A stretch of 64,000 bases of DNA from Oscillatoriales cyanobacterium M59_W2019_021 (GTDB lineage Bacteria > Cyanobacteriota > Cyanobacteriia > Cyanobacteriales > Geitlerinemataceae): the NCBI GenBank assembly GCA_015295945.1, contig DVED01000130.1, positions 1 through 64,000 of the forward strand, read 5' to 3'. Positions 39,213 to 41,762 of the stretch are shown here, one piece after another. The notes beneath the pieces are model-generated. The model searched no databases. It was not told where the DNA came from and was given only the letters and a program-made list of their open reading frames with translations. Made by a program: the position numbers and the translations under genes. Position 1 is the stretch's first letter, and the number at the start of each line of letters is the position of its first letter.

Positions 39213-39647
39213 CTATCCTAAAGTGACCGAAAGCGCGTTGCTAGACTGAGGCGAACAGTGCGGGTTCAGGGGTCGAGTTGCCATCCGCCGTGCCGTCATG
39301 ATGTCGGCAATCCACCCTACCAAATCGCTGCTTTCCAGCGTTGGATACGTATGCTTCAGCTTCATCCCCAACCGACTCGCCCCCCATCGCAACCATCCCC
39401 GCAAGCGAGGCAACTCCCACACCGTCAAGCGTCGCTGCCGCAAAATCTCTGCCAAGGTAAACGGCTCGAAATCCCTTGCAGCTTCTGCCAAACTTGGCGG
39501 TAGCGATTCCCCAAACTCAACTTCTAGAAAGCGAAGGAGGCGCAATAACAACACCCAAACTTCTTTCTGCGGAATCAGTTTTTCCAACCGTTCCGGGTCG
39601 ATTTGCGAACCCCATTTTCTGAGCACGAACGCAATATCCAAAATCAT
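39213..39647 (-). pseudogene. C-terminal part of a lasso-cluster nucleotidyltransferase family protein (NTP_transf_5-like)
   Basis: LDIAFVLRKWGSQIDPERLEKLIPQKEVWVLLLRLLRFLEVEFGESLPPSL matches the C-terminal helical part of that family; N-terminal catalytic half absent. Confidence 0.55.
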
Positions 39648-39649
39648 CG

Positions 39650-40938
39650 AGGCGATCGTAGCAATCGGAAGATTCGTAGAACCCGTAGTCTACCGAAACT
39701 GACTTGGCGTGAACCAAACCGCTGATATGGTCTTGGACTAACTCCGATTGGGCAGTGCGAATCCATTCCCCCAACCCTTGCAGCACTTCCCCTAACACCA
39801 AAATGCCCGCCATCAATCCGGCGGGAATCAAGAGGGTTTGAATGCTGTCCCAGGAAATGCCCGCACCCATCGCGGCGGTGAGGCTATCGACGACTTCGCG
39901 AGTTAGGTAAACGGTGGCAACGGGGAGAAATCCTTGGATGAAGAGTAAGATTAACCAAGCGCTCGTCCAAGGAGCGGCGGCATCCCAAACCAAGCGAAAG
40001 GTTTTGGGAAGGTCGGAAAAACGAGAAGCAGCGCGACTGAATTTGGCAGAGAGAGCGGATATTCTAGGCATGGCAGGGAGCGGGGGCGATCGCATCGGAA
40101 CGAGTTTCACCACATCGGGTAGCGCGGCGAGATTTCGCTGACGTTTCAAAGCAGAAATTGGCACTTTCTCGAATAAACGAGAGCATTGTTGTAAGTGATC
40201 CTTGTTGAACTCGGGAGCGTTGAGTAAGGTCACCGCGCGAGAATTGCGAACCAATTCGACGAAACTATCTTGGGGATTGAGGGGAACGATTTCCGGATGG
40301 GTTCCCATCTCCAGGACGTAGAGATGTTTGAGGGGGAGGGGGGTTTGCAGGAAACCGTCACTGAGTTGGTGTGCCAGTTTGGGACTTTGGTGGTGCAGGA
40401 GGGGTAAATTGTCGATATCGTGACCGATCGCCGTTGCCGCGTCGGGTAGCAGCTTCACTTGGGGAAAACTGGGAATCACCATCGGTTGTTCTTCCGAAAG
40501 GTCGATCGCCATTACATCGTCGGTTAACAAGCTGTAACCTTGGGAATGGAAGGCATCCGCCATCGTCGATTTGCCGCCGCCGGAGTGGGTCATAAACGCC
40601 ACCGCCACGCCGTCAATGGCAACGCTGCTGGCGTGGAGAACCAGAAATCCCCGCTGCCGCAGCAACATGGAAAACAACGGACCGAGAATTACCGGACGGA
40701 GAACTCCTTCATCCAAACCCGGTTCGGGATCGACGACGATTTCGCACCCTTCCCGGACGAGTAACAGTCCCACTCCTTCGACGCTACCTAAAAAATAATC
40801 CCCCCCATTACTGCGGCGATCGAGATTGTCCAATTTCCCCAGGCGAACCACTACGTCAGCGGGTCGATCGCACGGCGGCAGTTCGGGAAGTGGGAACTCG
40901 CAGTGGATGCTTAAATTGTAGGCGTGATAGGCGTACAT
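39650..40938 (-). pseudogene. HPr kinase-like lasso-peptide kinase continuous with a truncated ABC-transporter TMD
   Basis: P-loop THSGGGKSTMADAFHSQGYSLLTDDVMAID; from ~40071 an ABC exporter TMD begins (MPRISALSAKFS...LVWDAAAPWTSAWLI) and ends at YESSDCYDRL without an NBD. Confidence 0.75.
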
Positions 40939-41064
40939 CTTGAGTCATGTATAGAGTTTATCGATATCGGCGGCGATCGCGCTCTGTAGGAGGAAGAGTC
41001 GGAAGAGACACGTCTTGCTCCGCATTTCTTCCGACTCTCTCATTCAGTTTCCGGAATTTATTCC

Positions 41065-41499
41065 TTATCTGCTTCCGTAAGAGGGCATGGGGACGTAACG
41101 CTGCAAGTCACTGAGATAACCGATCGCCACTTTTCCTCGGTGTTCCACCCAAGCGTGAGCTTCCAGTTCTCCGGTTTCGCCTTTGGCGACGCCGATTCGC
41201 AGTTCGCAGGGATGACCGTGTTGTTTCATCATCGTCTGGGCGACTAAGGCGCGAGCCAGACATTTGACGCCACCGGGCATATAGCGAGTGCCAGTCTCGA
41301 TCGCCCAAACGATTTTGCCGATCGAAAGAGGCTCTGAATGTTTGGGAGGGGCTTGGCTGAGTCGATCGACGATTTTTTGTAGGGTGCGAAAGGGAAGGAA
41401 TCGCAAGCCCAATCGAACGAGACAGAGGAAAAGGAAAGTGTTGAAAAGAAGTTGGCGATCGCGAATTTTTTGGCGAATTCGAGCGATCGATCGCCTCAT
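41065..41499 (-). CDS. Lasso peptide biosynthesis B2 protein (transglutaminase-like leader protease)
   Basis: YMPGGVKCLARALVAQTMMKQHGHPCELRIGV...LEAHAWVEHRG: Cys/His geometry of the B2 family. Confidence 0.88.
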   Translation of the reverse strand: MRRSIARIRQKIRDRQLLFNTFLFLCLVRLGLRFLPFRTLQKIVDRLSQAPPKHSEPLSIGKIVWAIETGTRYMPGGVKCLARALVAQTMMKQHGHPCELRIGVAKGETGELEAHAWVEHRGKVAIGYLSDLQRYVPMPSYGSR

Positions 41500-41762
41500 T
41501 ACTTCACCTCAATGAGTTGCGCGGCGAATAAATCTTGGAGGAGGGCAAACAAATCTTGCTGGCAGCGATCGAGGGTAACATCGTACTCCGAAGCGATAGC
41601 TTCCACCAGCCCGCCGACAGTTTGGGGTTCCTGAATCCGGTTCCAAACCCACGCTCCCACAGCATTCAAGCCATAGTAAATGCCGGATTTGAGATTGAGG
41701 ATAACCGATTCTTCAGCATTTTTCTGGAATTTTAGTAAAAAAAACGAGTAATTAGATAGTAA
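41499..41762 (-). pseudogene. Lasso peptide biosynthesis PqqD-like B1 protein (RRE), no usable start codon
   Basis: Minus strand LLKFQKNAEESVILNLKSGIYYGLNAVGAWVWNRIQEPQTVGGLVEAIASEYDVTLDRCQQDLFALLQDLFAAQLIEVK*; stop overlaps the B2 start (TAATG); in-frame stop at 41763-41765 with no ATG/GTG/TTG before the core. Confidence 0.8.

Follow-up and report, generated by a model that had tools for sequence, protein, structure and literature searches.

A probable recently pseudogenised copy of a kinase-containing lasso peptide cluster in an Oscillatoriales cyanobacterium

Introduction

The genome of Oscillatoriales cyanobacterium M59_W2019_021, available as a draft of 4.99 Mb in 212 contigs (G000), very likely contains a lasso peptide biosynthesis locus that was recently pseudogenised and that is a paralogue of an intact cluster on another contig, C144, of the same assembly. 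The remains of this locus lie on contig C128, in the 64,000-nucleotide stretch of DNA analysed here (the window), where five homologous blocks, B1', B2, K, D' and N', follow one another on the minus strand from 41717 to 39264. The blocks keep the gene order of complete relatives, and the points at which they are broken can be identified, as fits the remnant of a kinase-containing lasso cluster. An earlier note on this DNA had proposed an eroding kinase-type RiPP locus consisting of B1, B2, a kinase, the start of an exporter and the end of a nucleotidyltransferase; all of these pieces were found on the minus strand, and the proposal is supported both by the matches of the RRE and B2 profiles and by relatives that have the same genes together with cyclase and precursor.

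Among the closest known systems are those of paeninodin (Paenibacillus dendritiformis), which has separate B1 and B2 proteins and an HprK-like precursor kinase, and of pseudomycoidin (psmK, psmN; Bacillus pseudomycoides), in which a kinase is accompanied by a nucleotidyltransferase-like N (PMC9266682). The paeninodin kinase acts ahead of B2 and C and phosphorylates the precursor at its C-terminal Ser; in pseudomycoidin, hexosylation of the phosphorylated Ser depends on PsmN (PMC9266682). Among the components of this type of cluster, the window holds the B1 RRE, B2 and the HprK-like kinase; cyclase C, precursor A and complete D and N are missing from it. It differs from paeninodin in having neither A nor C, and from pseudomycoidin in that its N is only a 127-aa C-terminal fragment.

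As an object, the relic is an ordinary pseudogene. It represents the loss of one among parallel lasso clusters in a single cyanobacterium, with the sister copy kept intact, and it directs attention to a group of cyanobacterial clusters whose precursor type is matched to the clade of the kinase.

Organization of the remnant locus

The features recognised in and beside the locus are the following:

41499-41717, minus strand: B1' (PqqD-like RRE), start codon and first 19 residues missing; PqqD and NF033536 matches, alignment with the B1 of C144
41065-41499, minus strand: B2 leader peptidase, full length, conserved residues present; NF033537 match, 6e-32
40939-41064, minus strand: gap (scar) of 126 bp between B2 and K, at the position of C and A in relatives; gene order of relatives
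40099-40938, minus strand: K, HprK-like peptide kinase that retains an intact catalytic part but lacks its C-terminal tail and stop codon; identity to lasso-cluster kinases
39649-40071, minus strand: D', N-terminal ~145 residues of an ABC exporter, fused in frame to K; identity to the D of relatives
39264-39644, minus strand: N', C-terminal 127 residues of a nucleotidyltransferase, N-terminal catalytic part deleted; identity to the N of C144
38977-39146, no strand assigned: copy of a dispersed ~165-bp repeat, adjoining the 3' end of the remnant; DNA similarity within the genome

The B1 frame matches PqqD (2e-18) and lasso_PqqD NF033536 (3e-17) in profile searches, with a score of 62.5 bits for the latter that, in this truncated protein, is below the curated cut-off of 80. 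B1' aligns to the B1 of C144 from residue 20 onward, with 67% identity, and retains 15 of 15 strongly conserved columns; similarity to C144 at the DNA level likewise starts at 41717. The gene was thought to be without a start codon, and this is the case: a stop lies upstream, and no ATG, GTG or TTG is present between it and the homologous part. The following gene, which overlaps B1' by the TAATG described before, is indeed a lasso leader peptidase (lasso_biosyn_B2 NF033537, 110.8 bits against a cut-off of 33), 71% identical to the B2 of C144 over its full length and with all 19 conserved columns kept.

The HPr-kinase-like protein with the P-loop HSGGGKST was also recognised correctly, since it is 52-56% identical, over 280 aa, to the kinases of complete clusters (56% to both the K of G132 and that of C144) and keeps 36 of 37 conserved columns. 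Its match to the HprK_rel_A profile is weak (33.8 bits, cut-off 200). After residue 280 the tail and the stop codon are gone and the reading continues in frame into the exporter, so that, with the stop lost, K and D form one frame of 473 aa. We considered a natural K-D fusion, suggested by long open frames in relatives; these were not upheld, K and D being separate genes, with a stop between them, in 30 of the 30 loci tested. D' reaches residue ~145 of the exporter, in agreement with the earlier reading of an exporter start with no ATPase domain; it is 59-63% identical to the D of relatives and about 50% identical to the D of C144, and the alignment ends at YDRL. N' lies in a different frame, the switch from D' falling within 39644-39649. 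The nucleotidyltransferase end is present as stated in the earlier note, which had called it a C-terminal half; it amounts to the C-terminal third, 65% identical to residues 234-360 of the N of C144, and by itself it gave no Pfam or NCBIfam match.

The 126 bp between the stop of B2 and the start of K correspond to 2.7 kb in C144, where C and A are found. The absence of both genes, already noticed beside the remnants from the letters alone, was borne out for the window. For the cyclase, the best tblastn values in the window were E 0.002-0.03, with short and scattered matches that form no coherent remnant. For the precursor, a search of all six frames of the window for a leader of the YxxP...T(-2) type found none (best hmmsearch E 3.6; 2e-16 and 9e-16 in the intact loci), and the same model found the known precursors of C144 and C49, which were among the sequences used to build it, at about 1e-14 to 1e-16. 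The gap also contains a perfect 12-bp inverted repeat with a 20-nt loop (40995-41006 / 41027-41038; AGAGTCGGAAGA / TCTTCCGACTCT).

The ~165-bp repeat beside the locus, which includes GTAGGGTGGGTTAGGCACG, belongs to a family with about 20 further members in the genome, partial or full, mostly at 80-96% identity. Insertion of this dispersed repeat was considered as the cause of the damage and rejected, because the repeat adjoins the remnant and is at none of the four lesions described below.

Relationship to complete lasso clusters

Matches to B2 or K in 40 relatives and 391 genomes of the class, together with a contig scan, gave about 50 loci. The prevailing order, found in about 27 cyanobacterial loci, is B1-B2-[P4H]-C-K(-D-N), with A mostly in the interval between C and K; the order A-C-B1-B2-K-N-D, which had been expected from the earlier note, is not the usual one in cyanobacteria, where B1-B2-C-A-K-D-N is common instead. 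The window B2 is sister to the B2 of C144 (support 98/93) and the window K is sister to the K of C144 (98/84), and in the next relatives in the K tree, G262, G132 and G144, B2 and K are in every case separated by C and A. From this placement, C and A very probably stood in that position in the ancestor of the window locus too. Two variant orders, C-K-D-B1-B2-N (L057/L096) and B1-B2-K-C-D (L090), were evaluated as a possible source of the window arrangement and discarded, given that the nearest relatives in the K tree carry C and A between B2 and K. A comparison with an empty site at rpiA was uninformative, as this site is not syntenic within the family and has other neighbours in the relatives examined.

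The cluster on C144 is intact, in the order B1-B2-C-A-K-D-N (L004 9496-16919), and contains a cupin-like gene, B1, B2, C (671 aa), a precursor of 68 aa, K, D (622 aa) and N (361 aa). The precursor begins MKSTYNAPKLIQHGNLEEITQAVGSLKFSD... and its leader is YNAPKLIQHGNLEEITQ. This cluster has the gene set and order proposed for the ancestor of the window locus. It is complete, with C and precursor; in the window both of these genes are missing, and B1, D and N are broken.

When the whole genome was searched with profiles, strong matches to Asn-synthase cyclases and to NTP_transf_5 numbered two each, and there were three B2s. A stand-alone A/C pair, for which a search of the rest of the genome had been proposed, is not what the genome contains: there are the complete cluster of C144 and a second, at least partial, one on C49, each with its own A and C. 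The C49 locus comprises B1, B2, a 2OG-oxygenase-like gene, C, two precursors (MKKQTY[KQ]KPE...GNVE[AT]ITQ...) and K at the contig end. Contig C207 opens inside another D, followed by N (L012 1-2661). We considered C49 and C207 as a single cluster and did not retain this, since the order would be plausible, yet the exporter of C207 is of the C144 type (69% identical to the D of C144), which makes the link unsure.

Probable decay of the locus

The locus from which the window copy descends would have had the order B1-B2-C-A-K-D-N. By homology with characterised enzymes, its B1 would have bound the leader of precursor A through the RRE, K would have phosphorylated the precursor, B2 would have removed the leader, C would have closed the macrolactam ring, N would have further modified the phosphorylated residue and D would have exported the product. 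Comparison with relatives shows sequence loss at four places: B1 lacks its 5' end and start codon; C and A are absent; K lacks its tail, its stop codon and the spacer, which fuses it to D; and the C-terminal part of D is missing along with the N-terminal part of N. The pathway cannot run from the window locus.

The pN/pS values between the window and C144 are 0.29 for B1, 0.31 for B2, 0.44 for K, 0.45 for D' and 0.35 for N'; B2 and K are free of stops, and N' and D' are likewise open. Since the dead N' and D' look as constrained as B2 and K, a special retention of the latter two is not indicated, and their open frames and conserved residues are no proof of function. The likeness is what one would expect had all of them been under selection until recently; recent decay explains both the open frames and the similar constraint. 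According to a simple count, 1275 nt would stay free of stops and frameshifts (P > 0.05) until neutral divergence reaches roughly 2-8%, the value depending on which indel rate is assumed. The physical breaks in B1, D and N, together with a degree of constraint in their fragments that matches that of B2 and K, favour erosion over repurposing. Two features count against decay: B2 and most of K are open with almost all conserved residues in place, and the loss of C and A has left B2 and K with nearly exact ends.

A rival reading is that B2 and K were kept working, and that they act in trans on the precursors of C144 or C49 while the rest of the locus is dead. Their conserved residues are intact, and some cyanobacteria have naturally split lasso loci (G045, G155, G039), so that such an action is possible. 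However, C144 already has its own B1, B2 and K; in the window B2 lies downstream of a start-less B1, with the TAATG overlap, and K is fused to a fragment of D and to a frameshifted tail; the dead N' and D' show the same pN/pS as B2 and K; and 1275 nt without a stop are to be expected provided that neutral divergence since the onset of decay is below ~2-8%. We regard this reading as unlikely. In the split loci, K-A-A stands apart from C-B1 in G045 and G155 (L095/L131 with L132/L134), with B2 beside K-A-A in G045, and in G039 (L103 with L136) B1-B2 and K occur without C, with N-D and C elsewhere.

Still less credible is an assembly artefact, in which several paralogous clusters would have been collapsed or joined into one chimeric contig. 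The assembly is a draft of many contigs, in which C49 is cut at a contig end and C207 begins inside D, but every piece of the window locus is a distinct third copy, unlike C144 and C49/C207; the fragment of D differs even where it overlaps C207 (72% DNA identity); the lost parts of C, N and D of the window copy are nowhere else in the assembly; and several independent lesions would be required.

A different, naturally cyclase-free cassette of the SynChlorMet (Scm) type, which also contains PqqD-like and HprK-like proteins and to which the weak TIGR04248/TIGR04249 matches in the window might point, can be set aside almost completely, because the ScmD- and ScmC-type profiles score far below their cut-offs (30.1/100 and 12.6/125 bits) and far below the lasso profiles (NF033536, 62.5 vs 30.1 bits; HprK_rel_A, 33.8 vs 12.6 bits for ScmC), a lasso B2 is present, and C and A both occur in the complete lasso clusters that are the nearest relatives.

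A possible cyanobacterial branch with long-core precursors

The branch of kinases to which the relic belongs is a more interesting lead than the relic itself. In the clade of the window's kinase, precursor cores span 30-58 residues, and of 15 loci 12 show a late GSx(D/N) and one a C-terminal Ser, whereas in the other kinase clade the cores are of 21-30 residues, with GSxD in one of 12 and a C-terminal Ser in nine of 12, the motif having been picked after inspection of the sequences and the core starts being predicted from the Thr at -2. Clade and precursor features are associated with Fisher values of 3e-4 and 8e-4, computed ignoring shared ancestry. Within its limited reach, a search of the literature turned up no account of this pairing of clade and precursor. 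Precursor genes of the long-core GSx(D/N) type lie between C and K in C144 (L004 12519-12725) and in L069, L071, L072, L075, L078, L080 and others.

It may be, and we propose it tentatively, that kinase-type lasso clusters include a distinct branch in cyanobacteria, comprising the relic and marked by a late GSx(D/N) and by predicted cores that are long (30-58 residues) and have the ring Asp near position 9; the surviving B2 and K would be a leftover of such a pathway or a helper to it in trans. In paeninodin the target of the kinase is the C-terminal Ser, which is missing in 14 of the 15 precursor loci of this clade; on this reading the kinase would act, unlike that of paeninodin, on an internal residue of the long tail. 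The pairing of kinase clade and precursor type makes the phosphorylation target of these kinases directly testable.

A 2OG-Fe(II) oxygenase-like gene, assigned by eye, is a further component of some loci: it is located between B2 and C in C49 (L005 4729-5469), L079 and L101, whereas in L087 it lies between B2 and K. Such loci may produce hydroxylated lasso peptides.
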